A DNA stretch of 55,836 nucleotides, taken from positions 1-55,836 of IMG/VR virus record IMGVR_UViG_3300014962_000009; one strand, written 5' to 3'. Positions within the stretch are counted from its first letter, which is position 1. Each line of letters begins with the position of its first letter. The notes beneath the pieces are model-generated. The model had not been told where the DNA came from, did not search any database, and worked only from the letters and a program-made list of their open reading frames with translations. Positions 25,907 to 42,195 of the stretch are shown here, piece by piece. The DNA is from a virus. A program made the position numbers and the translations under genes.

Positions 25907-25915
25907 TGTTACTCC

Positions 25916-26353
25916 TTAGATAAAAGCCCGCATTTCCAGCGGATCACCAGTGACTCGTGCAATAAGCTCATGGTCGTTAAGAATCATGAATAGCGCGGGA
26001 TCTTCGTAATCCTCGTCGCCGGGAACAGGCACTTCCCAACGGTCGCCACCCCACTTCGGGACACGAATGTAATCACCCACTTGAGCCCATGCGCCTTCAG
26101 GCCACGGCTCCATCGTGTCGCGCTTCTTAAATGCCAGAGGGCCGATCATCAGCACCTTGGCTACCATGTTGTTCCACTTCTCGGTCTCTTTGGTTTCTTC
26201 AACCAAGATAATCCCGGCACTGGTTGCTTTCTTCTTGGTACGACGCAGTTGCACCAAAATCCTTGCTCCAAGAGGTTCAGCACCGGGATTAACGCTCGGG
26301 AATGCCCAAGCTAATTCAGCTTCGTTAGAAGCTACCGGTTCATTCATGTTCAT
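25916..26353 (-). CDS. GroES-like co-chaperonin
   Basis: A 145-residue protein with the Cpn10 layout. After 25 leader residues, GARILVQLRRTKKKATSAGI starts the first strands, IILVEETKETEKWNNMVAKV spans the mobile-loop region and dome edge, VGDYIRVPKWGGDRWEV forms the next strands, and FMILNDHELIARVTG gives the final strand. In E. coli the mobile loop binds GroEL, and T4 gp31 replaces GroES for capsid folding; the same role for this capsid is inferred. The gene overlaps the small upstream gene by 14 bases. Confidence 0.75.
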   Translation of the reverse strand: MNMNEPVASNEAELAWAFPSVNPGAEPLGARILVQLRRTKKKATSAGIILVEETKETEKWNNMVAKVLMIGPLAFKKRDTMEPWPEGAWAQVGDYIRVPKWGGDRWEVPVPGDEDYEDPALFMILNDHELIARVTGDPLEMRAFI

Positions 26354-26525
26354 CCTGTTCCCTTAATAGATTGTTAAGTATTTCAAGGGCATATTCCAGC
26401 CCCTGATATTGGCCGACGAGCCTCTGATATGTCTCAAAGTTGACGCAGTTACCTGCGGCTAACGATGCGGCAATCTCATGCTGACGCGCTTTTACAGCGC
26501 CAATAAAGTCGCTTTCGTACCTCAT
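26340..26525 (-). CDS. Small helical protein, 61 aa
   Basis: A helical peptide: MRYESDFIGAVKARQHEIAA, then QRLVGQYQGLEYALEILNNL and a charged end REQDEHE. The frame overlaps its neighbours on both sides (ATGA upstream, 14 bases into the GroES gene). The helix-turn pattern resembles small accessory proteins found after portals, but no family is recognised. Confidence 0.6.
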   Translation of the reverse strand: MRYESDFIGAVKARQHEIAASLAAGNCVNFETYQRLVGQYQGLEYALEILNNLLREQDEHE

Positions 26526-26704
26526 GCGTTTGATTTATCTATGCCTTTCGTACCCCCTTCAAAGTTGCCGTGATCGGAATTGGCTTTCGGCTGAGTAGCC
26601 GAGCCCTGCTCTTGGTACTCTTGACCAGTGATCCACGCACCAGCCGCATTGCGGTGTTGCTGACGCACTGCTTCAGATTGCTCTTCTTTCAAAGTAACGG
26701 CCAT
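26522..26704 (-). CDS. Small protein after the portal, 60 aa
   Basis: A charged polar peptide starting MAVTLKEEQSEAVRQQHRNA and ending GTKGIDKSNA. The stop overlaps the next start (ATGA), and only one base separates it from the portal stop. No function is recognised. Confidence 0.6.
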   Translation of the reverse strand: MAVTLKEEQSEAVRQQHRNAAGAWITGQEYQEQGSATQPKANSDHGNFEGGTKGIDKSNA

Positions 26705-26705
26705 G

Positions 26706-29192: not shown

Positions 29193-29203
29193 GATCGTTT
29201 CCT

Positions 29204-32200
29204 TTAATTAACCGTCCAGATTGATTTCACTGCGCCGCCATTAGCAAAGGCAGGCGCTTGTACAAATAGACCGCCGTCAGACATATCGGGGTCAGAGTTA
29301 TATGAATTGACTTCACCGCCTTCAGCCATGCCTTGTACATGCTTCTGCAGCATCTCGTTAAAGCGGGACTCGTAGTCCACAGCACCACCTCCTGCCATGC
29401 CTGCGACATGATCTTGCAGCATTTGGTTGAAGCGGGATTCGTAATCGACTGCGCCACCTTCTGCCATGCGGACAGCGCCACCGTCTTTATATGACTGGCC
29501 TATCTTGGCAGACTCACGCATCTTAGGTGTGATGTCGATGTAATACACCTTCTCGCCCATATCAGGCCGGAACTTGCGCAAGACTTGATTGAAGATACGA
29601 GCATATTGATCATCAGACATTTGCAGCGCACTTTTACCGCCTGATAGGCTCATCATCTCCCGAATAAATCCGGGCATAGAAGTGATCTCGTCAATTTGTT
29701 TTAAGGTAAGGTCATGCATACCCTTACCAGCAGCAGGCAGCGTAGTCTCACCCACCTTGGCACCAAACTGCTTGGCATACTTGTCGAGGAAGTTCTTGTA
29801 GGTCTTGTCGTAATACTGGCGCATACCTTCGCCGCCGACTTTAAGGTCATTGCCCTCCAAAGTTTTCCAGCCAGAAAATTCTTTGGCATTAATAATTTTA
29901 TCCGCAGCATCTTTGCCAATGTAATCAGCAAGGCGATCTTTGGTCACATTTTCATATTTGATTGTGCCTTCTCCATTGGCTCTTTGAGCAGCAAAGCTCC
30001 CAGTAGATTCATTCCAAACAACTTTGTCTACTTGTTTACTCAAGTCATAACGATCAGCCTGCCGCGCACCCGTAGTCAGGTACACCCGATCCATGCCAGT
30101 GTCTGCAGCTTCTTTGACCGCACGCTTTAGTCCAAGCTGATACCAATTGTCTTTAAATGGGGCGTCGGGGACGGCTCTGTAATAAGCATTTGAAAGATCA
30201 GTAAATCTCCGCTCTTCTGCCGTTGCCTGATCCAATAATGGCCGTATCTCTTTTTGTCTAGCAGGGTTACCACTGTTTCTGTTGAATTCATTTAACAATT
30301 CTGTCGCCCTACGTCTTGCCGCAACATACTCAGGATCTTCCCAAGAAATTTGGGGCACTTTACTTTTGTATCCCTTTTCTCTCCCCTGCTGATGCCAGTC
30401 AGATTGCAGCTCATCAATCAGCAAGCCCTTCTTGCCTTCAGCGTCAGTGTGGTCAGCTACACGCAGGTGGAATAGGACGTTGGGCTCATCACCGTGGTGG
30501 GTTTGGTGCATGAAGTCCTGAACGTCGCCAGCATCAGCTCTTTCAATGGCTGCGTTGTATTCTGCCCTCGACATATTATTAATTGATGGCCGATTGCTAG
30601 GCAGTCCAACGCGGATCTCGCGGTAGTTCTCACCACCCGGCAGGTTGTATTCAGGCGCTGCATTCGGGCCAAACTTGGCTGGGCCAGAACGCATTGCCTG
30701 CTGGTACTCCTTCTCAAGCGTAGACAGATGACGCTCAATCTCAGCATACTCACGGCTATCAGAGTCGAGGTACTGCAACTCTTCCTTCAGGTTGTCAATG
30801 CTTTCGGCAATAGCGTCTAGCTTCTCATTGCTCTCAGTGCGCACTGTCTCTTGCAGTGGGATGCGATTCTGTTCTGCGGCAGCAACCAACTCCTCACGAG
30901 TTACGTTCGGACGGGAGGCCAGATCACCCAGACCAAGCTCAGTCAGGCGCTCATCGTTCACACCCGGCGTCTTCTTCATCTCAGATACAAACGCTGATCC
31001 CGGCCCCTGCTTACGCTGCACATTGAGTGCCGCCTTCTCTACGGGGTTGTAAAAGCCCAGATCATTTGCCGGAGCCTTGACCTTACCTTTGGGGCCGCTT
31101 TCAGGCACCATACTCATGCGCATCGGGGCTGTGGCCCTCTGGAGTTGCATCTCTAGAATGTCGGCAGGCGTAGGTGCCAATGCCTTAGCACCTGCCGTGC
31201 CGTACTTCAGCGCCTTCTGTGCAGCACCGGGGGCCAAGATGGCCGTGCCAAGCTCAGTCAGAGGACGCTCCTCACCCGTAGTAATGCCAGCCCTGCGCAT
31301 CAGCTCTTGAGCGCTCTCAGTGCCATAAGGCATCGTGCCCTGTGGGCCAACCTGAACCTTGGGCGCATAGCCCATGGGGGGCGTTCTCTCAGGGCCAGTA
31401 TCCATTACAGACGCAGGCTTGCGCAGGCCGGGGATTTTTGTCTGCAGCCAATCCAGTGCCTCGCCACCCATGCCGATGATGTCCATCGGAGCACCAGCAG
31501 CAAACGCCACAGGGCCACGCATCAGGATGTCGGTCAGCGCACCCGGCTTGCGCATCGATCTGCGCTCCCGTTCTATCTGAGCCTTCGCCGCATCAGACAG
31601 GTCAGTTAATGGCTGAGGGATTGTCAGTGGCTTAGGGTTGAACATCTCGCCAATCGACTGCCCCGGCTCGTTACCGCCTGCCATATGCACAGGGCCACCA
31701 TCCTTCTTGCCAGTCAATTCCTTGATGCGACGGCGGTACTCACCAATCTCGTCGAGCAATTGCTGGTCAATGATCTGCTTACCACCAACCATCTGCAGAG
31801 TGCCGAACTCGCTGCCTGCCTGCTTAGGATTAGCGCGGATGCCAGCCACCGTATCAGGGAAGGTCAGCTCATAAGGCATCAGTACATCAGTGCGGCCAAG
31901 GAACTGCCCCGGAATATCATGCGAGTAAGTCGGATGGGCTGATGGTTTCAAACCCTGTACTCCGGGCTCCATCTGCATGAGGGAATAGCCAGTCATGCCG
32001 CGTTCCATGTCCCGCAGCTCAGGCTCACTGACGGCGTGACGGACATTCAATCCGCTGGGCAGGCCAAGCTCTTCTGTTGTCTTAGTGAGCTGCATCACTG
32101 AGTTGTAATGCTTACGGGCCTCAGGATTCTCAGCCATATACAGATAAGCCGCTTCTGGATGCTCAATGCCGGGGAAGTCAGGGAACTCACCTTTGAGGTT

Positions 32201-33025
32201 GCCTGACCGGATGATTCTGTTGAAGTGGTCGATGTTGCGCTGAGTCATCTGCTCTGGCTTAGTCGCCTTTAGCAGGGCGTCGGCATAATGCTGAGCATAG
32301 TTCAGGCCCTCTGGGCCCATCGCCATAAAGTTAGCCAGCACAGGTACGCCACCGTATTGCTCAGATGCCCCAGTCACCAGACGCTGGAATTTGGCGGCAG
32401 GAACCAAGCCAGACGCCCAGCCCGCCTCCTCAGGATGACCAAGGCCAAACCGTGGGCCACCGTACTGACGGGACGGGGCACGTAAGCCCTCGCCACCAAT
32501 GCCAAAGATGTCGTAGTCAGAGATCGAGATATCACCCGGCAATGACAGCATCACGCTGCCTTTGTGCGGCTCCAAATCAATTACGCCAGCCTCTGGCACC
32601 TCCCGGCTGCGCTGAATATCGTGCTCAAGTTCCCGCTCTAAATCGAACTGCTTACGGCTTTTGCCTGCCACGCTGACAGATTCTCCGGGCTTGATGCGGA
32701 CGAACTCGCCCAGCATCTGCGGGGCTATGCGCTCAGCAATCGCACTGATCTCAGCTTTGGTCTTTGGCTTAGCACGGGCAGGCTTCGGGCTCGGGCCCTT
32801 AGACTTACCTTTGGTTGCAACGGGGCCAAGGTCAGCGGGGCGCAACCGGGCAAGCTCTTCGCCTTGTTTCGCAGCCATCTCAGCAATGTACTGGCGCTCA
32901 GCAAGCGACAACTGTTTGCCAGCCTTAGTAAGTTGACTGATGTCCTGCGCAGCCTCGCCAGCCTTCTCAGCGCCTCGGGCTGTTTCAAATAGTTTCTTGA
33001 AGTCTTTAGGGCTAGGCATAGTCAC
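29204..33025 (-). CDS. 1273-aa large polyvalent-type protein
   Basis: The largest gene wholly inside the window. The basic N-terminus (MPSPKDFKKLFETARGAEKA) is followed by a 400-residue mixed region, a Pro/Gly linker with KKDGGPVHMAGGNEPG near residue 450, and a domain near residues 830-980 with LIDELQSDWHQQGREKGYKS and LGLKRAVKEAADTGMDRVYL that I know only as a conserved element of large phage proteins (polyvalent-protein associated). The C-terminus carries two tandem copies of GGAVDYESRFN-x-MLQ-x-HV between 29330 and 29480. It overlaps TerL by ATGA. It may be injected with DNA; function unknown. Confidence 0.75.
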   Translation of the reverse strand: MTMPSPKDFKKLFETARGAEKAGEAAQDISQLTKAGKQLSLAERQYIAEMAAKQGEELARLRPADLGPVATKGKSKGPSPKPARAKPKTKAEISAIAERIAPQMLGEFVRIKPGESVSVAGKSRKQFDLERELEHDIQRSREVPEAGVIDLEPHKGSVMLSLPGDISISDYDIFGIGGEGLRAPSRQYGGPRFGLGHPEEAGWASGLVPAAKFQRLVTGASEQYGGVPVLANFMAMGPEGLNYAQHYADALLKATKPEQMTQRNIDHFNRIIRSGNLKGEFPDFPGIEHPEAAYLYMAENPEARKHYNSVMQLTKTTEELGLPSGLNVRHAVSEPELRDMERGMTGYSLMQMEPGVQGLKPSAHPTYSHDIPGQFLGRTDVLMPYELTFPDTVAGIRANPKQAGSEFGTLQMVGGKQIIDQQLLDEIGEYRRRIKELTGKKDGGPVHMAGGNEPGQSIGEMFNPKPLTIPQPLTDLSDAAKAQIERERRSMRKPGALTDILMRGPVAFAAGAPMDIIGMGGEALDWLQTKIPGLRKPASVMDTGPERTPPMGYAPKVQVGPQGTMPYGTESAQELMRRAGITTGEERPLTELGTAILAPGAAQKALKYGTAGAKALAPTPADILEMQLQRATAPMRMSMVPESGPKGKVKAPANDLGFYNPVEKAALNVQRKQGPGSAFVSEMKKTPGVNDERLTELGLGDLASRPNVTREELVAAAEQNRIPLQETVRTESNEKLDAIAESIDNLKEELQYLDSDSREYAEIERHLSTLEKEYQQAMRSGPAKFGPNAAPEYNLPGGENYREIRVGLPSNRPSINNMSRAEYNAAIERADAGDVQDFMHQTHHGDEPNVLFHLRVADHTDAEGKKGLLIDELQSDWHQQGREKGYKSKVPQISWEDPEYVAARRRATELLNEFNRNSGNPARQKEIRPLLDQATAEERRFTDLSNAYYRAVPDAPFKDNWYQLGLKRAVKEAADTGMDRVYLTTGARQADRYDLSKQVDKVVWNESTGSFAAQRANGEGTIKYENVTKDRLADYIGKDAADKIINAKEFSGWKTLEGNDLKVGGEGMRQYYDKTYKNFLDKYAKQFGAKVGETTLPAAGKGMHDLTLKQIDEITSMPGFIREMMSLSGGKSALQMSDDQYARIFNQVLRKFRPDMGEKVYYIDITPKMRESAKIGQSYKDGGAVRMAEGGAVDYESRFNQMLQDHVAGMAGGGAVDYESRFNEMLQKHVQGMAEGGEVNSYNSDPDMSDGGLFVQAPAFANGGAVKSIWTVN

Positions 33026-34458
33026 ACCGCGTAAGGGTTAGAGCGCTTGCGGCTCGGCTCGACGTAATCGTCATCGTCATCCACAGGGCGCGGGTCAATG
33101 TCAAGCCAGCCCGCATCACGCAAGTATCTCAAAGCCTGAGTGCAACTGTCCACATAATCGTCATGCGTTGACTCTGGGAAAGAGCAGATCTGACTTACGA
33201 ATCCTTCCGCCCAGTCCCTGACGTATCCCTTGCGCACTGAGCTTTCAGGTATCCATACGCGCCTGTGGGCGATGATATTAGCGACGATGCTAAGTCGCTG
33301 GATCTTATCGGCCTTGCCGGGGTTGTACGCCCTGACTGGGAGATGCGCTCGTTGTAAGTCTTGGATCAGGGATATGCCAGACGCCTTGTCCTCAATAAGA
33401 ATAAGATCCACCTTCTTGCCGCCGGTGAAGTTTCCTCGGCTTTCTTCCTCGGGATCAGCGCCGAAGGAGACTTTGTATTCCTCAATAACTTTCGGACGTA
33501 AATCCGGGTACTGAAGCCGATCCTGCCATGCATCGATGAGCATGACGCCCATGGGGCCGTCTTCGGGTTTAAACACTCCCCAAGTAGTCGCAGCCGTCGG
33601 GTCATTGACAGTCTTTTCCGTGTATGCGCAGTCATAGCTTTGTAGGATGAATTCAAACTTAGGGAAGTTCTTGTGTGTGGGCCAGAGCCGGAACATCTCC
33701 CGCTTAACCATGCCTGACTCTTCGGGGTCGATCAGTTCAGCCTCGATCTCCTGACGGCCAAGCTTAGTGCCTTCGTACTGCAGGATCTGCTTCTTGAAGT
33801 TATCAGCGAGGTTGTCGATGTTGGCATACGTCGAGGCGCGGGTGATCACCACATCGTCGCCTTCACGGCCCACCAGCTCCACGATCAGATCCTTTGGCCT
33901 CGGGGTAGTAGTGCAGATCAGCCTGACCTTCTTACCCAGACGCAGACCGAACTGCATCATGTCCCATGCGTCTTGCAGGTAATCCCATGCAGCCAACTCG
34001 TCACACCATCCGCCATGAAACTGTGGGCCCCGGAAGCGCTCAGGCTCAGATGCCGGAATGCCTTTGATCAGGCTCCCATTGATCAGAATCAACTCATGAA
34101 GCGCCTTGTTGTAATCCTTGACTAGTGAACTGGGGATGACTGAAAGCAGGCCAGAGTCCCCCTCAAAGCAAGTGCCACGCACGTCAGCAGAGGTTGGGGC
34201 TGCCACCACCCAGCGGGTATTGGGATTGCTCCACGCCCACCAGCCGAGCTCTTCGGCAGCCGTTCGGGTTTTGCCAGCGCCTCGGCCAGCCAGCATCAGC
34301 CAGATGTCCCACCAGTCTCCCGGCGGTTTGACTTGGTGCGCATGAGCTTTGGTGAGCCACAAGGAACGCCACTCGAAGGCGGCGCGGTAATTGGCAGGCA
34401 GCTTAGTGTATTGCTGGCGTAGCTCAGGATCCTTGAGCAGTTCGACAATGCCCGTCAT
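33022..34458 (-). CDS. terL: Terminase large subunit (packaging ATPase-nuclease)
   Basis: A 478-residue packaging motor. The ATPase half shows Walker A GRGAGKT at residues 58-64, the WVVAAPTSADVRGT strand, and Walker B with D153-E154 in GGWCDELAAW, then the C-motif TTTPRP. The nuclease half has D276 in QSYDCAYTE, E356-D357 in LILIEDKAS and D433/D434/D437 near THDDYVDSCTQALRYL. All expected catalytic acids are present. It overlaps the MazG-like gene upstream and the 1273-aa gene downstream by 4 bases each. Confidence 0.95.
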   Translation of the reverse strand: MTGIVELLKDPELRQQYTKLPANYRAAFEWRSLWLTKAHAHQVKPPGDWWDIWLMLAGRGAGKTRTAAEELGWWAWSNPNTRWVVAAPTSADVRGTCFEGDSGLLSVIPSSLVKDYNKALHELILINGSLIKGIPASEPERFRGPQFHGGWCDELAAWDYLQDAWDMMQFGLRLGKKVRLICTTTPRPKDLIVELVGREGDDVVITRASTYANIDNLADNFKKQILQYEGTKLGRQEIEAELIDPEESGMVKREMFRLWPTHKNFPKFEFILQSYDCAYTEKTVNDPTAATTWGVFKPEDGPMGVMLIDAWQDRLQYPDLRPKVIEEYKVSFGADPEEESRGNFTGGKKVDLILIEDKASGISLIQDLQRAHLPVRAYNPGKADKIQRLSIVANIIAHRRVWIPESSVRKGYVRDWAEGFVSQICSFPESTHDDYVDSCTQALRYLRDAGWLDIDPRPVDDDDDYVEPSRKRSNPYAV

Positions 34459-34757
34459 TGCTTGACAAAGATGCCTTCCTTATTCATGTAGCCTTTGCGG
34501 TCTTTGATCTCTTCGTAAGCGGCCTTCAGGCAGCGGGTCAGATCCAGATCCTCAAGGGCGGCCACATTGATCAGGCAGACCAGAACGTCCCCTAAACCGT
34601 CAATGATGCCATCCCTGTCGCGGGCTTCGAGCGCCTGCTTGAGCTCAGCCATCTCCTCCTCGGCCTTCTTGTGCTGGGCAAGCGAAGTGCTGTTTGGGAT
34701 GATCTTACGATCCTCAGACCAGCGGATAACGTCCAGCTCTACAATGTTCCAACTCAT
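34455..34757 (-). CDS. MazG-like nucleotide pyrophosphohydrolase
   Basis: A 100-residue all-helical protein. The paired acidic motifs KKAEEEMAELKQALE and IIDGLGDVLVCLINVAALED match the MazG/all-alpha NTP pyrophosphatase metal-binding pattern, EExxE followed by GDxxV. It would hydrolyse non-canonical or alarmone nucleotides, adjusting host metabolism. It is placed between the terminase subunits and overlaps TerL by ATGA. Confidence 0.8.
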   Translation of the reverse strand: MSWNIVELDVIRWSEDRKIIPNSTSLAQHKKAEEEMAELKQALEARDRDGIIDGLGDVLVCLINVAALEDLDLTRCLKAAYEEIKDRKGYMNKEGIFVKQ

Positions 34758-34987
34758 CTTTGTTCCCTTTGGCGAATAGCTTCTGCATTTGAAAGCAGCA
34801 CATCAAAAACCATCCCCCCATGAACGCATTTCTCAGCATTTGCGTCGAGAATGGCGGCGCAAGCCTCGCGCTCTGCTGTTGCGACTAGCTTGGCAAAGCG
34901 AGAAAGCTCACTGACTGTCTTATCCCAGCCCTCTGGACTCCAGCCGTTTGCTTTTTCATATAGCCTGACAATATCCTCATCGGTCAT
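34754..34987 (-). CDS. Small protein with EREACA motif
   Basis: A 77-residue helical protein: SPEGWDKTVSELSRFAKLVA, TAEREACAAILDANAEKC, ending SNAEAIRQREQR. The EREACA ... A-x2-IR-x-R pattern also occurs in the products at 39705-39983 and 44540-44788. Overlaps both neighbours by ATGA. The role is unknown. Confidence 0.65.
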   Translation of the reverse strand: MTDEDIVRLYEKANGWSPEGWDKTVSELSRFAKLVATAEREACAAILDANAEKCVHGGMVFDVLLSNAEAIRQREQR

Positions 34988-35178
34988 CTATGTCTCCCAT
35001 AAACCGCAGCCATCAGGCGGCTAACCTTCTCTGGCGGCGTAAGGCCCCTGCTCTTATATATGCTCTCAGAACGGCAGGCTAGGCAGTCAGCGCAGATCCA
35101 GCGCCTAGTCCGGCGAAGCTTCCTGTCCTCTCCGCCCTCTTCAGTCTTCTTGCTCTGGCAGGATGTGCAGAATCTCAT
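34984..35178 (-). CDS. Zinc-ribbon micro-protein
   Basis: A 64-residue protein with two Cys pairs (CTSC near the start and CADC in RRWICADCLACRSES) spaced like a zinc ribbon, plus many Arg/Lys. It overlaps TerS by ATGA. It belongs with two similar frames at 38808-38972 and 43862-44038. Nucleic acid binding is inferred. Confidence 0.65.
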   Translation of the reverse strand: MRFCTSCQSKKTEEGGEDRKLRRTRRWICADCLACRSESIYKSRGLTPPEKVSRLMAAVYGRHR

Positions 35179-35693
35179 TTGGCCTTTGCTTGCTTATTGA
35201 GCTCAAGGTTCTGCAGCAGGGTGTCGAAGATCTTGGACTCCACATTCACCTCTAGCGGGTTCTCAGCGTCACCAGCAAGGATCTGGCGCTCACCATACTT
35301 CTTTGGCTTCAGCTTGGCTGCAATCCACTTCCGAGCGTCTATGCGGTTCTTCTGCCATGTCACCCACCCGCTATCAGTGCGGCTCACACCCTTGTCATCA
35401 ACAACCTCAGCAGGCGGCTCGTCAGCAATTGCTTGTATTTCATCAGCAAGCGTATCTGCCTGCTCATCCCTAGCTCTCGCGTAGTTCTCTGAAAATTGCT
35501 TATTCTGCAACAGCCAAAGATAGACAGTGCTTTGTACTGGCATCTTCTCTTCCATGCATATTTGTCTCAGTGATTCTCCACATGAGATTCTTGTGCATAT
35601 CTCTGCTGCTAGTACGGGATCGTATTCTGTCTTGCGCCCGGCTCTTTTTCGGGGCTTTGGTTGCGCTTCGGCAACTGTAGTGGGATCAGACAT
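35175..35693 (-). CDS. terS: Terminase small subunit (Sf6-like)
   Basis: A 172-residue protein that recognises the packaging site and feeds DNA to TerL. The basic leader (KPRKRAGRKTEYDPVLAAEI) precedes a helix-turn-helix region (CTRISCGESLRQICMEEKMP, STVYLWLLQNKQFSENYARA) and an oligomerisation region with KNRIDARKWIAAKLKPKKYG, the mark of Sf6-type small subunits. A candidate promoter lies 35 bases upstream, which would make it the first gene of the late transcript. Confidence 0.85.
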   Translation of the reverse strand: MSDPTTVAEAQPKPRKRAGRKTEYDPVLAAEICTRISCGESLRQICMEEKMPVQSTVYLWLLQNKQFSENYARARDEQADTLADEIQAIADEPPAEVVDDKGVSRTDSGWVTWQKNRIDARKWIAAKLKPKKYGERQILAGDAENPLEVNVESKIFDTLLQNLELNKQAKAK

Positions 35694-35727
35694 ATCTCAG
35701 TCCTATTGGGTGATTATGAGTGCTGAG

Positions 35728-35756
35728 AGTGTAATGTCAGGTTGGTTAATGCGCAA
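35728..35756 (-). promoter_or_regulatory. Candidate promoter in front of terS
   Basis: On the minus strand TTGCGC (35751-35756) and TACACT (35728-35733) are spaced by 17 bases. The same TTGCGC box is used at the divergent switch (42546-42553). Confidence 0.45.
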
Positions 35757-35970
35757 CGTCACTAGAATGCTCTAGTGCGTTAATGGCTATTTTGACCATC
35801 TCACTGACTGCTCTGGTGTGGTTTGCAGTGACGTTCGGGACTTCAGCGATCATCTCTAATGCGTGAAGCAAACGGTCAATTGTTTTTGAGGCGGCGAACA
35901 TGTCATCAGATATCTGACTCAGCGCCACCTTGGCTTTTACGAGATCCAGCTCGGATAAATAGTCTGACAT
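35746..35970 (-). CDS. Small helical protein, 74 aa
   Basis: An all-helical peptide: MSDYLSELDLVKAKVALSQI, KTIDRLLHALEMIAEVPNVT and SEMVKIAINALEHSS. No family is recognised. It precedes terS, and its end overlaps the -35 of the candidate promoter. Confidence 0.6.
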   Translation of the reverse strand: MSDYLSELDLVKAKVALSQISDDMFAASKTIDRLLHALEMIAEVPNVTANHTRAVSEMVKIAINALEHSSDVAH

Positions 35971-36011
35971 CTTTCCCTCTTTAAGGTATTCGATTTAATT
36001 GTTTCTTGCGG

Positions 36012-36209
36012 TTAATGCATGAACATCTTCTTGATGAATTCTGCCGCTGCTCCCGGCCCTAATAGAACCATGATCATAACGCCATACAACAGGTACTCAA
36101 TCTTTTGCATCCGGTCAGCGCCCTTTTCGAGCTGCTCTTCTATCTTCTTCGATCTTTCGTTACAGATTGCCTCGTGAATGGCAAAGCGGGTTTCCAAATC
36201 GTGATCCAT
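36012..36209 (-). CDS. Small coiled-coil membrane protein, 65 aa
   Basis: A peptide with a charged helical head (MDHDLETRFAIHEAICNERS, KKIEEQLEKGADRMQKIEYL) followed by one hydrophobic segment LLYGVMIMVLLGPGAAAEFI. A coil plus one C-terminal membrane helix is the layout of XhlA-like or small accessory lysis proteins. ATG at 36209 starts 1 base after the previous stop; an earlier TTG overlaps more. Topology is seen; a lysis role is inferred. Confidence 0.55.
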   Translation of the reverse strand: MDHDLETRFAIHEAICNERSKKIEEQLEKGADRMQKIEYLLYGVMIMVLLGPGAAAEFIKKMFMH

Positions 36210-36210
36210 T

Positions 36211-36384
36211 TCAATCAAACCCCCGCAGAGTTTTGGCTAAGCGGGCACGTTGACCTACCTTGCCGGGTTTCTTTGCGGCAGCTTCGAGTTTCTTTGCGGG
36301 AATGTTCTTTCCCTCGGGAACTTTAAGCGCTTTGCGCAGCGATCCCGGTTGCTGAATTGCCTTCTGTATCCACTTCTCCGACAT
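36211..36384 (-). CDS. Basic small protein of a known phage type
   Basis: A 57-residue basic protein: MSEKWIQKAIQQPGSLRKAL, KVPEGKNIPAKKLEAAAKKP and QRARLAKTLRGF. Similar peptides (PGSLRKAL, IPAKKL, KRA-x-LA-x-TL) are common in phage genomes without a known role. The ATG with AGGGGA six bases before it is preferred to earlier frames. Its first 62 bases overlap the next upstream gene in a different frame. Confidence 0.65.
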   Translation of the reverse strand: MSEKWIQKAIQQPGSLRKALKVPEGKNIPAKKLEAAAKKPGKVGQRARLAKTLRGFD

Positions 36385-36547
36385 TTTCATTCCCCTGAGC
36401 AATAGGCAACTGAGGCGTAGCCTGCAATTGAATATTGTTGATCATTGGAGCCGACTGGTTAAAAGGCAAGGTGCCCAGTAACGTCAACAGATGATTAACC
36501 TCTTCAAGATTATATTGCAGCGTAATGTGGATGTCTTTGTTTTCCAT
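36323..36547 (-). CDS. Small hypothetical protein, 74 aa
   Basis: A peptide starting MENKDIHITLQYNLEEVNHL and LLTLLGTLPFNQSAPMINNI, resembling small phage proteins with VN-x-LL-x-LG-x-LP cores. The C-terminal half is Gln/Asn/Gly-rich and overlaps the start of the following gene by 62 bases. ATG at 36547 is chosen over an upstream TTG. Function unknown. Confidence 0.6.
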   Translation of the reverse strand: MENKDIHITLQYNLEEVNHLLTLLGTLPFNQSAPMINNIQLQATPQLPIAQGNENVGEVDTEGNSATGIAAQSA

Positions 36548-36549
36548 TG

Positions 36550-36648
36550 TCAATCCTGAATTGGTGGGTCAGGCTGCAGTGTTGGGGTGAACTGACCAAA
36601 GTCCCCATAACCAGCACCGCAGCCCTTCCCGTTAAGATTATATGCCAC
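36550..36648 (-). CDS. Possible micro-protein, 32 aa (GTG start)
   Basis: A frame starting GTG at 36648 directly after an in-frame TAG and reading AYNLNGKGCGAGYGDFGQFT then PTLQPDPPIQD. Its stop lies two bases before the next ATG, the usual packing here, and the composition is protein-like. There is no clear ribosome site, so it is tentative. Confidence 0.35.
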   Translation of the reverse strand: MAYNLNGKGCGAGYGDFGQFTPTLQPDPPIQD

Positions 36649-37114
36649 CTATAAGTTAGGTTGTTGGCAAGCTTTTACAGTCGAGCCTACTTGTCCGTAT
36701 TCTTTCAACGGTGAGCTGATAGCTGTGCTTACCAACACGGCTGAGGACTGGCGCACAACGTCAACCAGCGAACCGATCTTTAGTTGCACTTGTAACCAAT
36801 CCTCATGCGTGTTGGTTGTTGGTGGCCGGTGCTGATCTCCGGCTTACTGCGTCCTCTCGCACTTCCCGCAGTCGGTACTTCGACAAAAGCTTTAGTGAGG
36901 AACGGGCGTATCAGCCTACGCATTCACCAACACGGCTGGAAAGGCTGCACCCATCGGCCGTGTGCGATATGCCACTGTCACCCTTCGCCTCCCCATGCGT
37001 CTTAGCCCCCGTCTTTCCGGGGTGTCAGGTACTCGCTGCGTCTGTGGCGAGGCGCTCTCCCCGCTGCGGCTTTCACAGCATCCGCTTTCCCCAATCACTA
37101 CTTTAACTCAAGCT
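36649..37114 (-). ncRNA. Gene-free 466-bp stretch, candidate structured RNA
   Basis: No convincing protein frame. Several hairpins are visible, given on the plus strand: GCCGG/CCGGC at 36825-36829 with 36839-36843; GCGTA/TACGC at 36906-36910 with 36917-36921; ACACGGC/GCCGTGT at 36930-36936 with 36957-36963; CCCCG/CGGGG near 37007-37022. A 13-base direct repeat (ACCAACACGGCTG) sits at 36731 and 36926, and both copies can pair with CGTGTTGGT at 36808-36816, so two exclusive folds exist. The strand is inferred from flanking genes. It could be a phage large RNA of the GOLLD/ROOL kind or a new class. Confidence 0.45.
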
Positions 37115-37312
37115 TTACACTTCTTCCACTGTTACCCTGTATTTCTTGCCGTACCGATCCTCAACGTCAAGGATCTTCTTGGTGGATAGGAAGGCTCCAG
37201 AAGCCGCCAGATGAAGCTGTGGGGCTGAAACGCTGGATAAGAGCTTCTCTACATCATTCGCCTTCAGATTGCCCCGTATAAGGGCTGCAATGTAATCACA
37301 GTAAGCCAGCAT
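37115..37312 (-). CDS. Small protein, 65 aa
   Basis: A peptide starting MLAYCDYIAALIRGNLKAND and ending ILDVEDRYGKKYRVTVEEV. Its ATG directly follows the upstream stop (TAAATG). The lysine/valine-rich end looks like a folded beta tail. No family is recognised. Confidence 0.6.
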   Translation of the reverse strand: MLAYCDYIAALIRGNLKANDVEKLLSSVSAPQLHLAASGAFLSTKKILDVEDRYGKKYRVTVEEV

Positions 37313-37474
37313 TTAATCCTCCAGCATCTCACGCAGGTTCTCAATAGCCTCTTCAGGCGTAGCACCATGCGCACATGGATCATCGCCATTGCAGCCTTTC
37401 TCGTAGGCAACGTAAGCCCACTGCGGGAACAGGAAAGCGCCGTCAGACTCCCAAGCTTCGTATTCTTTTTTCAT
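37313..37474 (-). CDS. Small acidic protein, 53 aa
   Basis: A short protein starting MKKEYEAWESDGAFLFPQWA and ending TPEEAIENLREMLED; the APEEAIENL helix and the CxxxDPC spacing in GCNGDDPCAHG are visible. ATG at 37474 lies behind AGGAG and the leader shared with the gene at 37801-38088. A longer upstream frame has no ribosome site. It is driven by the promoter at 37519-37547. Confidence 0.65.
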   Translation of the reverse strand: MKKEYEAWESDGAFLFPQWAYVAYEKGCNGDDPCAHGATPEEAIENLREMLED

Positions 37475-37518
37475 GGTCAGTTCTCCTGTTCGCATCCGAT
37501 CAAGTGATCGTAGGTGTA

Positions 37519-37547
37519 ATCTTAGGTTAAACAATTAACCTCGTCAA
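37519..37547 (-). promoter_or_regulatory. Promoter with internal palindromic operator
   Basis: On the minus strand TTGACG (37542-37547) and TAAGAT (37519-37524) have an ideal 17-base spacer. The spacer consists of a 7-bp inverted repeat, AGGTTAA and TTAACCT separated by 4 bases (37524-37541), an obvious binding site for a repressor. Confidence 0.7.
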
Positions 37548-37555
37548 CACTTTTT

Positions 37556-37639
37556 TTAAATAACCCCAATGATTACCATAATGGTAACCATCAGAGTCAT
37601 GATGGCTATGCCAGCCAGTACTATGTAATCGGGATCCAT
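37556..37639 (-). CDS. Micro membrane peptide, 27 aa
   Basis: A frame reading MDPDYIVLAGIAIMTLMVTI then MVIIGVI: two acidic residues followed by one hydrophobic helix. Its ATG lies 2 bases after the stop of the next micro-gene. It ends just upstream of the promoter at 37519-37547. A membrane peptide is plausible; a regulatory leader is the alternative. Confidence 0.45.
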   Translation of the reverse strand: MDPDYIVLAGIAIMTLMVTIMVIIGVI

Positions 37640-37641
37640 GG

Positions 37642-37788
37642 TCAGAACCAGAGATAGAAGCCGTGGAGAATGCCGATAGGGAACATGATCGCCCCGGCAA
37701 TCAGGAAGCCCCACAAGCCATCTGCGAAGCAAGTAAAGACGTGTGTCAGCCATGCCGCAAAACATGTCAGTCCAATAATCCAGCCCAT
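37642..37788 (-). CDS. Small two-helix membrane protein, 48 aa
   Basis: A peptide starting MGWIIGLTCFAAWLTHVFTC, with a second hydrophobic segment GFLIAGAIMFPIGILHGFYL. GGGGGAATT precedes the ATG. Similar two-helix peptides with GFLIAGA-x-FFPIG cores appear in other phages to my knowledge. The function is unknown; a holin or inner-membrane accessory is possible. Confidence 0.6.
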   Translation of the reverse strand: MGWIIGLTCFAAWLTHVFTCFADGLWGFLIAGAIMFPIGILHGFYLWF

Positions 37789-37800
37789 AATTCCCCCTAA

Positions 37801-38088
37801 TTAACGTGAAGTGACTTTGACAGAGAAGACAGCAGCAGTCTTTGTATAGGCTGCAAGCTGCTCGGCAGTGATACCCAGATCGGCAGACAACTTTTTCCAG
37901 TCAACGGTAGAGCGGTTAGCTTCGATGACGGTAGCCTTGAACAGGTCGCCCTCGAACACCTTGCTGCCGCCGGGAGCAGTAGCGGAATCTTTGAGATCGG
38001 CTTTGATTGCGTCAGCCTGCTTTTCGAGCTCAGCGATCTGAGCCAGCAGTGCGCCGAGAGTGTCGATGGTGTTGAGATCGTTTTTCAT
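37801..38088 (-). CDS. Conserved small early protein, 95 aa
   Basis: A charged protein: MKNDLNTIDTLGALLAQIAE, LEKQADAIKADLKDSATAPG, GSKVFEGDLFKATVIEAN and the end TKTAAVFSVKVTSR. The pattern (helical head, EGDLFKATV, C-terminal FSVKVTSR) recurs as an uncharacterised early protein in many phages. It shares its 5-prime leader and promoter type with the gene at 37313-37474. Confidence 0.65.
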   Translation of the reverse strand: MKNDLNTIDTLGALLAQIAELEKQADAIKADLKDSATAPGGSKVFEGDLFKATVIEANRSTVDWKKLSADLGITAEQLAAYTKTAAVFSVKVTSR

Positions 38089-38137
38089 GGTCAGTTCTCC
38101 TTAGTTCGCATCCGGTCTAATTGGTGACCGTGATGCT

Positions 38138-38167
38138 AGTGTAAGTCGGACTTAAACGACCTGTCAA
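38138..38167 (-). promoter_or_regulatory. Promoter with palindrome overlapping the -10
   Basis: On the minus strand TTGACA (38162-38167) and TACACT (38138-38143) are spaced by 18 bases. A palindrome TAAGTC-C-GACTTA (38142-38154) lies between and touches the -10. The following leader repeats that of the promoter at 37519-37547. Confidence 0.6.
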
Positions 38168-38175
38168 CAACTTTA

Positions 38176-38469
38176 TTAAAATATTTTTTCTTCTTGCTCA
38201 AGTGGCAACCCATCAGTCAGCAGGCGCTGGATGGTGACGTTCAGGGCGTCGAGCTCGTCCATCTTGCGGATAGCCCATGCCCGCTTCTGGCCGTGCCAAC
38301 CCATCATAGATCCCTGATGGCAGTCGTAACAGAGCGCTACAGTGGTGTACTGCTGGCCTTGGTTGATGTGGTGGGCAGAGCTAGGGGGAGGGGCATTGCA
38401 GACGCTGCAGGGCAGGCTCTTGACCCTTGCCAGATGCTTCCGGTCAGCAGCCGTCAGCTTGTTGTTCAT
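38176..38469 (-). CDS. Ref-like HNH nuclease (RecA-dependent type)
   Basis: A 97-residue protein. KHLARVKSLPCSVCNAPPPS, SAHHINQGQQYTTVALCYDC and HQGSMMGWHGQKRAWAIRKM give Cys pairs, the AHH-x-INQG core and DCH typical of Ref/YhhZ-like recombination nucleases (PF16786-type). P1 Ref cleaves at RecA filaments. It lies beside genes for recombination and probably aids repair or recombination. Confidence 0.7.
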   Translation of the reverse strand: MNNKLTAADRKHLARVKSLPCSVCNAPPPSSAHHINQGQQYTTVALCYDCHQGSMMGWHGQKRAWAIRKMDELDALNVTIQRLLTDGLPLEQEEKIF

Positions 38470-38798
38470 AGCGTAACCTTGCCCTCAGCCCGGTTGCTGG
38501 CCTCCTGAGACCGCCAGACCTCGACCCTTGCTTGAGCTGCCACCATCTCCCAGCGCAGCGTTTCTTCGACCTCTACGGCAGCCTGCAACCCCTTTAAAAG
38601 CGCAACATACTCAGGATGACTGTACGCCTCACGCTCCTGAGCATTAACGGCGTTTTCCATGGATTGCTTCATCAGGATAGCTTTCAGACTCTTACGGTAT
38701 TCTTCCATGTAGATACGGTCTGCTTTGGCCTTTGCATAGTGCTTGCCATTGTCCCGAATAAAATCGACCGCCCTATGTGGGTCAATCTCACGTTCCAT
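38466..38798 (-). CDS. Early helical protein, 110 aa
   Basis: A charged all-helix protein: MEREIDPHRAVDFIRDNGKH, AKAKADRIYMEEYRKSLKAI, LKGLQAAVEVEETLRWEMVA and AAQARVEVWRSQEASNRAEG. I have seen this pattern (LRW-x-M/LVAAQARIEVWRSQEA) in phage early regions where it sits next to Ref or RuvC genes. Function unknown. AAGGAGG precedes its ATG. Confidence 0.65.
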   Translation of the reverse strand: MEREIDPHRAVDFIRDNGKHYAKAKADRIYMEEYRKSLKAILMKQSMENAVNAQEREAYSHPEYVALLKGLQAAVEVEETLRWEMVAAQARVEVWRSQEASNRAEGKVTL

Positions 38799-38807
38799 GC
38801 AACCTCC

Positions 38808-38972
38808 TTATTTTTCTGTAGCCCGCTGTTCTTGTTTTTGCTTGCAGTCACTGCAAATCCACCGCTGGCGCATACCGTTATCCAACACAACGTAGGTTCC
38901 GTCTTTAGTTGGCTTTCTGATCTTGCAATTCGTACACAACCTCGGTTCCGATGCCACGTTCCTCAACAACAC
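38808..38972 (-). CDS. Zinc-ribbon micro-protein, 54 aa (start uncertain)
   Basis: A frame with CTNCKIRKPTKDG and RQRWICSDCKQKQEQR, matching the zinc-ribbon spacing of 34984-35178. A GTG at 38972 behind AAGGGTGG is the best start; others are possible. It overlaps the HTH gene by 68 bases in another frame and ends just before the strong ribosome site of 38466-38798. Confidence 0.55.
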   Translation of the reverse strand: MLLRNVASEPRLCTNCKIRKPTKDGTYVVLDNGMRQRWICSDCKQKQEQRATEK

Positions 38973-39084
38973 GATTAACCACCCTTCTTACTTGCCCTTT
39001 GTCTATTTTATATTTCTTTGCAATCGCGCCAATGGACTCGCCGCGCATCCATGCAATATAAATATCAATGTCTTGTTTTTGCAA
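38905..39084 (-). CDS. Small helix-turn-helix protein, 59 aa (TTG start)
   Basis: A peptide starting QKQDIDIYIAWMRGESIGAI and AKKYKIDKGQVRRVVNRVVE; the WMRGESIGAIAKKYKIDKGQ segment has the two-helix spacing of an HTH. The TTG start lies behind GGAG. It overlaps the stop of the next upstream gene by 20 bases. Probably a DNA-binding regulator; target unknown. Confidence 0.55.
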   Translation of the reverse strand: MQKQDIDIYIAWMRGESIGAIAKKYKIDKGQVRRVVNRVVEERGIGTEVVYELQDQKAN

Positions 39085-39250
39085 CTCTGACTCCCATCAT
39101 CATGTCAGCCATATCAAATGCAGCTTCAGCAATAAACCTGAGATTGTGTTCACTCTCAAATATTTCTGGATCCACCGATGACATCAAGCCTTGTAATGCA
39201 AATGCAGCAAAAGCACATCGCATCTGCTCTTCAGTATCAAACATGCTCAT
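39065..39250 (-). CDS. Small helical protein, 61 aa
   Basis: An acidic helical peptide: MSMFDTEEQMRCAFAAFALQ, GLMSSVDPEIFESEHNLRFI, AEAAFDMADMMMG. Overlaps RuvC by ATGA. No function is recognised. Confidence 0.6.
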   Translation of the reverse strand: MSMFDTEEQMRCAFAAFALQGLMSSVDPEIFESEHNLRFIAEAAFDMADMMMGVRVAKTRH

Positions 39251-39708
39251 GAGAATGTTCTCCTTGCGTAATCCGCTATAAGTAAAGCTTCAGCCTTGCC
39301 ATGGTCTTTCTTCAGCAGCAGTTTAGCTTGCGGGAAAGCAAGCCGAGCTGCTATTAACGATTTTTCCTTCTCGGAATTCAAGCTCATCGCTTTTTTCCAT
39401 ACTTGAGGTATAACGTAAAAAACCCTATCAGTACTGAGTTCAGCAACAGCACCAATAGCACCAAAGGCGCGCATAAAACGCCCAGAACTGGCAATGCCTT
39501 GTTTGGGCATGACGCCCACCTGCTCAAGACAGATCGCATAATCATCTCCCGGTATCGTCATATCAAGAATCATTTGCTTCAATGTGCGAACATCAATCCT
39601 GTCATTGATTGCAGGAATGTCGTAAGCAGCAATGAAATTACCATTATGGTCTATTGCGCCAATGGCCCCAGTGCGCAGACCGGGGTCAATTCCGATCCAT
39701 ACCGTCAT
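39247..39708 (-). CDS. RuvC-like Holliday junction resolvase
   Basis: A 153-residue RNase H-fold nuclease. D8 in WIGIDPGLRTGAIG, E62 in AICLEQVGVMPKQG, and the C-terminal KKDHGKAEALLIADY (D135, E140, D146) place the four acids of the RuvC active site; the third position may use E140 rather than Asp. It resolves branched DNA at the end of replication or before packaging. It lies in the left early block. Confidence 0.85.
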   Translation of the reverse strand: MTVWIGIDPGLRTGAIGAIDHNGNFIAAYDIPAINDRIDVRTLKQMILDMTIPGDDYAICLEQVGVMPKQGIASSGRFMRAFGAIGAVAELSTDRVFYVIPQVWKKAMSLNSEKEKSLIAARLAFPQAKLLLKKDHGKAEALLIADYARRTFS

Positions 39709-39983
39709 TGTCTTTGTGCCGGTATTCGATTCAGGATTGCATCAGCAGCATTATTCAATGCTGTGCATAACTCACCCTCTTCTTCTTCACTGGCAAGCTT
39801 CTTGACAAGTTCTGCGCAAGCTTCACGCTCAATAAAAATTGCTTGCTTTGTAGTCTCAATGGCTACCGTCATGATCTCGGCCTTTGCTAAAACCAGCGCA
39901 TCATCAAATTCCTTCTGCGTGAATACCTGAACAGCTCCACTACTAGCTAAAAATTGTTTCTGAAAGTTGCTTAACTCGCTCAT
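39705..39983 (-). CDS. Small helical protein with EREACA motif, 92 aa
   Basis: A helical protein: MSELSNFQKQFLASSGAVQV, DDALVLAKAEIMTVAIETTK, FIEREACAELVKKLASEEEE and AADAILNRIPAQRQ. The EREACA motif is shared with 34754-34987 and 44540-44788. ATG at 39983 overlaps the upstream stop by ATGA. Confidence 0.6.
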   Translation of the reverse strand: MSELSNFQKQFLASSGAVQVFTQKEFDDALVLAKAEIMTVAIETTKQAIFIEREACAELVKKLASEEEEGELCTALNNAADAILNRIPAQRQ

Positions 39984-40171
39984 TTCCAATCCCCCTTTTC
40001 ACCTCGATTTCCAAGTTTCCATTGATTCGCCACTTCATTCCGGAGCTTCTGACTGTCATGGTTCTTTTCCCACATTCGCAAAAACTCATAAGCCTTATCC
40101 CTGTCTTCAATCCGCATTCGGATAACTTCTCGAACGAGACACTGCCATATTTCGGTTTGTACATCCGTCAA
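39980..40171 (-). CDS. Small protein after the helicase, 63 aa
   Basis: A charged peptide: MTDVQTEIWQCLVREVIRMR, DRDKAYEFLRMWEKNHDSQK and NQWKLGNRGEKGDWK. It overlaps the helicase stop by ATGA. Similar small proteins occur beside phage helicase genes as far as I know; function unknown. Confidence 0.6.
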   Translation of the reverse strand: MTDVQTEIWQCLVREVIRMRIEDRDKAYEFLRMWEKNHDSQKLRNEVANQWKLGNRGEKGDWK

Positions 40172-41118
40172 AAATCACCCTTCTGATCAAACGCCATTGG
40201 CATTCCATTGTGCTTATCAATGAATTGCTGGCTGTCATTATGAAAATAAAACTCGAACCAAGGTTCGCGTTCCCCGTTTCTTTGTTTCTCGCACATCAGG
40301 TAAGCATCCGGGATCATCGGATCAACGTCCTCACCACGCTCCAGACTATGCTGCTTCTTCTTATTGCGCCACAGAATCAGAACATTGTCCACCTGATCCG
40401 TAATAGAAGATGATCCACGAAGGTCTGACTTGCTCGGACGGACTTCCTCACTTGCCAACTTACGTATGTGGTGAACCAGATGGATGTGAATGTCATTATC
40501 ACGGGCAATTGCCGTAAGCTTGTCCACAAAGTTCTTTTGCTCATTGTATGAATCCTCCCCCGGTACGCACTTCATCAGGCTATCAATGAACATGTGCTGG
40601 ACACCCAGCTTGGTCGCGCAGTGATGGCATACAGCCTCAATCATTTGGGCATTGACCGTGCCCTGCTGGTCGTACAAGTAAAGCTTTTTGTCCACAAAGA
40701 TCTTGAACCGTCCGTAGGCATCCCGCTTCTGGGAATCAGGCGTCTGAACGTAATGATTGGACTCAAGAGACTTCCCGGCAAACTGCCTGATCATTCGCTT
40801 CAGGGTGATCTTTGGCTTCATCTCAAAGCTGGCAATGCAGATCTTCTGCCCCTGCTTCATGAGCCCCAGAGCAACCTGACCAGTCATCAGGGATTTACCA
40901 GAGCCGTTGCTGCCAGCCCAGACAGTGACTTCGCCGGGACGAAAGGCAAAGCTATCAACCGTAATGCTCCATGGCAACATGACTGATCGATCCACCGGCG
41001 GATTGATCAACTCCTCTTCCAATTCGTCTACCCAGACTCTGGCTTCCTTGACCTTTGCTTCGTGGTCAGTCATCGCCAGATAGGCATCAAAATCAATATC
41101 GTCGTCATTCAGGTACAT
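40168..41118 (-). CDS. DnaB/RecA-fold replicative helicase
   Basis: A 316-residue ATPase. Walker A GSNGSGKS (residues 69-76) follows FRPGEVTVWA; later IASFEMKPKITLKRMIRQF is the H1a-like region, GVQHMFIDSLMKC gives Walker B, HIHLVHHIRKLASEEVRPSK holds the H3 region, and SDLRGSSSITDQVDNVLILW is the sensor strand. It lacks the N-terminal DnaB domain, so it resembles the C-terminal T7 gp4 or phage RecA-like helicases. ATG at 41118 is preferred over an earlier start. It sits downstream of an O-like protein, forming the replication pair. Confidence 0.85.
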   Translation of the reverse strand: MYLNDDDIDFDAYLAMTDHEAKVKEARVWVDELEEELINPPVDRSVMLPWSITVDSFAFRPGEVTVWAGSNGSGKSLMTGQVALGLMKQGQKICIASFEMKPKITLKRMIRQFAGKSLESNHYVQTPDSQKRDAYGRFKIFVDKKLYLYDQQGTVNAQMIEAVCHHCATKLGVQHMFIDSLMKCVPGEDSYNEQKNFVDKLTAIARDNDIHIHLVHHIRKLASEEVRPSKSDLRGSSSITDQVDNVLILWRNKKKQHSLERGEDVDPMIPDAYLMCEKQRNGEREPWFEFYFHNDSQQFIDKHNGMPMAFDQKGDF

Positions 41119-41449
41119 AGCAATCCCATTCGCCGTTTTCGCTATCAATTATCAAATCACCAACTACAGTGATCACCCTTCTTGCTGCTGCCTTCTTCAA
41201 AGCATCGTGCAGTTTCTTTGCAATTTTGTAATCGTTACAGCCTGAGACATGCACCGTCAGACCAACAACAAACCGCAGATCAAGCGTCTCAGGATTCTCC
41301 GTCGGCAAGATCTCGATTTCTGGGTACGGCAGGGTATCTGCGTACAGATGCCATGTCATGCAGTGAAGAGAGGGCCTGTGGCTTATCCAGACGCCCTGTG
41401 GGCGCTTTTTTTCACTGCGGAGGGTCAGCAGTGCTTGATGACCTCTCAT
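41105..41449 (-). CDS. Hypothetical early protein, 114 aa
   Basis: A protein with a basic head (MRGHQALLTLRSEKKRPQGV) and a beta-rich body (YADTLPYPEIEILPTENPET, LDLRFVVGLTVHVSGCND, RRVITVVGDLIIDSENGEW). No catalytic motif is recognised. It lies between the replication gene and the helicase, overlapping both by a few bases, so an accessory replication role is possible. Confidence 0.6.
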   Translation of the reverse strand: MRGHQALLTLRSEKKRPQGVWISHRPSLHCMTWHLYADTLPYPEIEILPTENPETLDLRFVVGLTVHVSGCNDYKIAKKLHDALKKAAARRVITVVGDLIIDSENGEWDCYVPE

Positions 41450-42195
41450 GAGCTTGTAGCCCGTTTTGGAGCCCAGTCGGGCATCCCAGCTTTAACAGCA
41501 GGTTTGGCATAGCTATCGTTTTTCAGCCAATCGGCGTTGAACCCACCCCAACCCCGCTCGCAGCAAATCGTAATCGCCTGCTGCAAGGTCAAACCAGCTT
41601 TTACGGCTTCCCGTTTGATGGCCTCTAGAGCCGTGTCAGTCATCGGTAATTTTTTAGCCTTTCTGACTTGCAAGAAATCATCCCAAAGAGAATCAGACAC
41701 GCCTTCAGGCGGCTTCTGCTTTTTGTTTTTTATTGGGTTAATGGGTTTATGGGTAGCATCATTTTTTGATTCTGCAGCATTGCTCGAGGTATGCTGCAGC
41801 ATAACTGTTGCATTGCTCTGGCTGTCCTGCGGCATTCCAAGGGCATTGTGCAAATCAACATGCTCTTGATGCTGCTGCATTGCCGCTGCATCTTTCCATC
41901 GTTTCATGGCTTTGTTCCGAGCAACTTCAGATTTTGCGTAAACCTTTGAAAGCTCTTCGTCACAACGGGTATGCCGCCAAAAATCATTTTCCAAATAAAA
42001 ATAAGATTGCAATATCAACAACACCTTTTCTCGTGTTGCACCAATCTGAAAAGCCAGCATGTCGGGATCATTTGGCAACGGACGCTCAGTGTCGTAATAC
42101 GTCCACATAAGCTTCAGGTATGACATCTTGTCAGCATCTGACAAAGACGAGGTGGCTTTTAAAAAGTCACCGATATGGTGGCTGTAATAATGCAT
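41446..42195 (-). CDS. O-like replication initiation/helicase-loading protein
   Basis: A 249-residue protein. The N-terminus HYYSHHIGDFLKATSSLSDA and the following helical YLKLMWTYYDTERPLPND match the DUF1376 replication-protein domain. The linker is Gln/Asn-rich (AAAMQQHQEHVDLHNALG). The C-terminal WDDFLQVRKAKKLPMTDTAL and GWGGFNADWLKNDSY fit a DnaT/O-type end that contacts the helicase. The origin may lie in its Gln/Asn-rich coding region, as in lambda O, but no iterons are evident to me. Confidence 0.75.
   Translation of the reverse strand: MHYYSHHIGDFLKATSSLSDADKMSYLKLMWTYYDTERPLPNDPDMLAFQIGATREKVLLILQSYFYLENDFWRHTRCDEELSKVYAKSEVARNKAMKRWKDAAAMQQHQEHVDLHNALGMPQDSQSNATVMLQHTSSNAAESKNDATHKPINPIKNKKQKPPEGVSDSLWDDFLQVRKAKKLPMTDTALEAIKREAVKAGLTLQQAITICCERGWGGFNADWLKNDSYAKPAVKAGMPDWAPKRATSS

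Follow-up and report, generated by a model that had tools for sequence, protein, structure and literature searches.

A gene-free stretch of a virus contig carries a predicted minus-strand noncoding RNA of roughly 430 nt, composed of modules in the order C-F-D-B-D-A, which probably, though far from certainly, is a stable RNA that works in trans. Comparison with relatives shows modules A, B, C, and D as structured RNA units, shuffled and nested among unrelated phages and turning up in hundreds of phage sequences. Judged from these comparisons, the array is a chain of small exchangeable modules and not one large fixed RNA.

The array and its surroundings

The stretch, positions 36649-37114, belongs to a virus contig from IMG/VR that is 55,836 bases long, was analyzed whole, and is called the window here. 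It had been described as gene-free, and its internal ORFs indeed lack a Pfam match and encode no recognizable protein. The same Pfam check of these ORFs turned up no conserved protein frame, the finding named beforehand as contrary to a structured RNA. The original prediction was right to place an RNA in the stretch but read the plus strand; the RNA lies on the minus strand, which also codes for the flanking genes and carries the tRNAs in relatives. The minus-strand fold beats 100 of 100 dinucleotide-preserving shuffles (z = -3.25), and the unconstrained minimum-energy fold only partly reproduces the comparative model. No tRNA or tmRNA was found in the whole window by ARAGORN and Rfam, and a site scan found neither a promoter just upstream of the array nor a terminator on its strand. 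The array and the features around it are as follows.

41446-42195: O-like/primosomal protein gene (PHROG match), upstream of the array
40168-41148: DnaB-like helicase gene (PHROG match), upstream of the array
39247-39708: Holliday junction resolvase gene (PHROG match), upstream of the array
37115-37312: upstream gene, its stop codon 22-23 nt before the start of module C
about 37094-36662, minus strand: predicted structured array, roughly 430 nt, order C-F-D-B-D-A
36323-36547, minus strand: small protein gene downstream of the array, product beginning MENKDIHITLQYNLEEVNHLLTLLGTLPFNQ
35175-35693: terminase small subunit gene (PHROG match), downstream of the array
33022-34458: terminase large subunit gene (PHROG match), downstream of the array
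26706-29192: portal-like gene (PHROG match), downstream of the array

Read along the minus strand, replication genes come first, then the array, then packaging genes. In lambdoid phages, the late leader sits between replication and packaging genes. By comparison of position, the array would thus stand in a late-leader-like place, a likeness of position in a window in which no Q gene was identified. The product of the small gene at 36323-36547 has no Pfam or PHROG match, and an HMM search of the loci detected weak relatives of it near modules in several other contigs.

The predicted parts of the array are listed in the order of the minus strand.

37028-37092, minus strand: module C, consisting of GGGGAAAGCGGATGCTG, a variable hairpin, and CAGACGCAGCGAGTACC; fits the pattern of more than 120 IMG/VR contigs
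37007-37022, minus strand: module F, hairpin CCCCG-GAAAGA-CGGGG
36987-37005, minus strand: 5' strand of D copy 1, CUAAGACG-CAU-GGGGAGGC; assigned with the help of the D consensus
36927-36945, minus strand: 3' strand of D copy 1, GCCUUUCC-AGC-CGUGUUGG; last bases common to the closing helix of B
36817-36932, minus strand: module B, closing helix 36932-36925/36824-36817
36921-36918/36909-36906, minus strand: stem of hairpin 1 of module B
36915-36910/36836-36831, minus strand: kissing loops of module B
36905-36844, minus strand: variable arm of module B
36843-36839/36829-36825, minus strand: stem of hairpin 2 of module B
36731-36816, minus strand: D copy 2, ACCAACACG-CAU-GAGGAUUGG ... CCAGUCCUC-AGC-CGUGUUGGU, an inverted repeat
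36662-36737, minus strand: module A with its closing helix, UGUUGGUAAGC (36737-36727) / GCUUGCCAACA (36672-36662)
36725-36678, minus strand: core of module A, 48 nt

The closing strand of module A overlaps the 3' strand of D copy 2. D copy 1 was missed by the automatic scan, its strands differing from the consensus; we assigned it manually, given its sequence and its position ahead of B, and it is among the D-B tandems discussed below.

Compensatory changes and a kissing loop

The structured RNA candidate is supported by compensatory changes in A, B, C, and D, together with a kissing loop in B. Covariation in relatives, which had been proposed as a check, is present. Helix support was taken from direct pair counts, and the covariation test used positions left as N in the scan patterns, so pairing there was not forced by the search; the alignment rows come from the same hits as the scan. 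In hairpin 1 of B, the free position is paired in 146 of 146 cases and takes the forms CG, TA, AT, GC, and TG, and the free position of D is paired in 52 of 53. Columns 2-47 of A are paired in 36 of 37 and columns 9-42 in all 37, with all four Watson-Crick types (AU, GC, UA, CG). Covariation also appears in the closing helix of B and in the helices flanking the internal loop of C, where outward and inward pairs both covary. Aligned pair counts gave 97.4% of cells paired for B and 96.6% for A, and the covariation scores of both modules exceed all 500 shuffles and all slid versions. The helix of hairpin 2 weighs less, since the B rows were pre-filtered for a pairable hairpin 2, and one B row (L038) is misaligned at both ends.

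The kissing loop of B pairs GCUGAU with AUCAGC. We scanned for altered loop 1 sequences and compared each one's own loop 2 with borrowed ones. Twelve variant loops make six Watson-Crick pairs with their own loop 2 (ACUGAU/AUCAGU, UCUGAU/AUCAGA, UGCGAU/AUCGCA, and GUUGAU/AUCAAC among them); with borrowed loops, the number of variant loops that do so is 1.5 on average and 6 at most. The comparison list holds 26 pairs from 25 rows, one in excess, which leaves the conclusion unaffected. A mobile or recombination element at the DNA level, whose palindromes merely resemble RNA structure, would suit the mosaic pattern and the wide spread over unrelated phages. However, the compensatory changes include G-U wobble on one strand, and these changes, the conserved loops, the kissing loop, and the variable inner arms all argue against it, and we regard it as very improbable.

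A strand shared between neighboring modules

Competing arms had been predicted from a 13-base direct repeat, ACCAACACGGCTG, and a single CGTGTTGGT complementary to both of its copies. Both elements are there, the repeat at 36731-36743 and 36926-36938 and its complement at 36808-36816, and the words ACCAACACG/CGTGTTGGT form parts of modules D and B. The two exclusive folds envisaged on this basis hold up in relatives, where mutually exclusive pairing is kept; this conservation suggests more than chance. As the 3' strand of D is common to the closing helix of the following module, only one of the two pairings can form at a time.

In 35 D-B tandems, the shared strand UGUUGGUG can either pair inside D or close B. 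The bases UGUU, the four between the D core and GGUG in these tandems, can pair one by one with the 5' strand of D in 35, 21, 35, and 34 of the 35 loci; for pairing with the 3' strand of B, the corresponding counts are 30, 35, 35, and 35. At L086 and L163 the third base of UGUU is A rather than U, and both of its partners have changed from A to U. This double covariation, found at two loci only that are perhaps related, is what conserved, mutually exclusive helices would predict. The same layout occurs in D-A, D-C, and G-B tandems, the last in enterobacterial phages, and is present twice in the window, where it links B to the first copy of D and A to the second.

Module G (AGGUAAGAGC ... GCUCUUUCC) replaces D before B in HK620 (L017), L016, L018, L450, and other enterobacterial phages. 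A boxA-like GCUCUUU lies in the 3' strand of G.

Modules are spread, shuffled, and nested among phages

Low-stringency blastn located module A as a 48-base piece in about 45 phage records (RefSeq duplicates counted), where the DNA is unannotated and the identity 93-98%. The hosts are Aeromonas, Enterobacter, Serratia, Salmonella, Acinetobacter, and Pseudomonas, and 37 IMG/VR contigs carry the module. Same-strand tRNA genes lie near it in all five records inspected (L005 and L006 among them), and in Acinetobacter and T4-like phages, the space between two tRNAs is taken up by module A together with its closing helix. For module B, matches taken at E up to 1 extend to as many as 119 phage records in GenBank (HK620, P1, and Klebsiella and Pseudomonas phages among them), the weakest rows being uncertain. 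It is also found in more than 120 IMG/VR contigs, as is module C. Module D consists of a helix interrupted by an internal loop, which is conserved. The F hairpin is present in 10 of 82 arrays; of the 78 array regions left after deduplication, 12 contain its word GCCGGAAAGACGGCAC.

E. coli genomes nearly always leave the B region unannotated. A Polynucleobacter genome contig (L432) has phage genes and tRNA-Gly next to modules B, F, A, and D and, taken with the phage hosts of the modules, extends the range over Gamma- and Betaproteobacteria. A host survey of genome contigs by an 18-base pattern was set aside, the pattern being too short and most matches probably due to chance; two of its contigs, L384 and L432, have real module groups. 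No Rfam 15 family covers modules A-D at gathering score in the window and 30 relatives scanned. The literature searched contained neither the module sequences nor a description of the modules, and papers beyond it may describe parts. Across many phages the modules form strongly conserved noncoding sequence, without annotation or a curated RNA family.

Elsewhere the modules stand singly, nested, or in orders other than that of the window. A chaining scan, in which F was ignored, counted 18 module orders in 82 arrays. Module A is nested in C in five contigs (L008, L011, L022, L023, and L024) and in D in four (L038 and L041-L043), elsewhere following D, and module B is nested in C in L038.

Predicted mode of action

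We propose that the putative RNA is transcribed from the minus strand at the junction of replication and packaging genes. D would fold first during transcription and would then yield the shared strand once the 3' half of the next module emerges, the modules thereby folding one after another. More tentatively, the finished RNA may act in trans as a stable phage RNA, made with tRNAs in many phages, and each module might bind, or make tertiary contacts with, a partner from the host or the phage.

The trans reading draws on antisense B units, a unit in phage ep3, and the position of module A between tRNAs. The B units of Klebsiella phages KP591P1 and 6991 run antisense to the annotated genes on either side of them; that of 6991 has a promoter-like TTGACA-17-TAGATT upstream, and the same sequence is visible in KP591P1. 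The B unit of ep3 has a terminator-like site at each side and a convergent gene next to it, and a consensus scan found no promoter for it. Against a role in trans, the array in the window is sense and between genes, like C in its gaps, and the scan showed no promoter just upstream and no terminator on its strand, features that suit a role in cis. Gene orientation around modules comes from simple ORF calling, which is noisy, and is taken as a hint only.

A possible but less probable explanation is a put-like, cis-acting leader by which RNA polymerase would get past terminators or Rho where long stretches are untranslated. B often follows genes for CI-like repressors or Q-like antiterminators and precedes holin or N-like genes, sites that correspond to pL-type and late-leader positions, and the array in the window lies between replication and packaging genes. 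Of 114 B sites, 26 have an intrinsic terminator in the 250 nt that follow the module, versus 0 shuffled. However, only 1 of 98 C sites has a terminator downstream, some RNA-only units have no co-directional downstream gene, A lies between tRNAs, and HK022 (25000-40751), scanned with mismatches, has none of modules A-D at the limits used.

The modules might instead be intercistronic elements that protect or cut phage mRNA, as a processing site or a barrier to 3' exonucleases, which we think unlikely for the array as a whole. C mostly sits in narrow intergenic gaps on the sense strand, in many contigs beginning about 8-11 nt past the upstream ORF's stop codon, and is sense to that ORF in 95 of 101 sites classified by the same noisy ORF calling. 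But such an element leaves module A in tRNA clusters and the stand-alone B units unexplained. A role as cis-acting leader or in mRNA stability may instead apply, above all to C, and the roles of separate modules may differ.

Together with the trans-acting RNA that we favor, the comparisons lead us to a broader proposal, held with the confidence of a somewhat better than even case: phages of Gamma- and Betaproteobacteria would share a kit of exchangeable RNA modules for many noncoding architectures, in which gate hairpins (D, or G in enterobacterial phages) hand a shared strand onward during transcription. With the laboratory phages P1 and HK620 among the carriers, expression, structure, and deletion phenotypes are directly testable.

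Comparison with known RNAs

The Rfam search proposed earlier was run and gave a family match neither for the window as a whole at the gathering threshold nor for 36400-37350 at E up to 5. Mimicry of rRNA or tmRNA by modules A-D was rejected, alignments to E. coli 16S, 23S, 5S, and ssrA being at chance level (32 comparisons, the best equalled by 1 of 100 shuffles). The species 1 and 2 RNAs of T4 (rnaC and rnaD) are small stable RNAs in a phage tRNA cluster. A relation to them was likewise rejected, modules A-D having no occurrence in that T4 region.

A likeness to tmRNA (RF00023) exists in some enterobacterial phages, where B is preceded by a tmRNA-like tag region (L450:2640-2835 in Klebsiella phage 6991, also L016, L017, and L452-L456). 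The encoded tags include ANEEMYLAVA, ANDDVVLMAA, and ANDEQFLAVA, each followed by a stop, and 796 phage records contain similar DNA. No tRNA-like domain was found in the tag region, and Rfam tmRNA models match it below threshold only. In a 2014 survey, mycobacteriophages and Bacillus phage G are the only phages listed with tmRNA (PMC4131195). No tag-like frame occurs near A, C, or D or around the array in the window.

The put RNA suppresses termination through the zinc-binding domain of the RNA polymerase beta' subunit. Like it, the modules are structured phage RNA found in operon leaders, with B often at pL-like or late-leader positions; unlike it, several array relatives are RNA-only units. 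In phage HK022, put RNA is about 70 nt long with two stem-loops (PMC9378689).

Two tRNA-associated or contig-sharing RNAs were noted beside the modules. A GOLLD RNA lies in the tRNA cluster of Acinetobacter phage YMC13/03/R2096 (L003:4213-4579, minus strand), about 1.7 kb from module A, and a viral contig in which D encloses A also carries a Betaproteobacteria-1 RNA (RF02932; L042:9070-9191, minus strand).

GOLLD (RF02032) and ROOL are structured phage-encoded RNAs, often by tRNA genes, without a protein product. The original prediction had likened the stretch to them without claiming membership. The tRNA setting is true of many array relatives but not of the window, which has no tRNA, and a family match did not materialize. 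That the array is a divergent GOLLD or ROOL member is the least probable explanation we considered: it too is phage RNA with relatives near tRNAs, but no covariance model matches the region and the architecture differs, GOLLD and ROOL each being one fixed large fold and the array a chain of small modules exchanged between phages. We know of no other natural noncoding RNAs with domain-like shuffling of RNA units and a conserved hand-over of a strand between neighbors, and we consider the module kit and its shared-strand hand-over new in kind.
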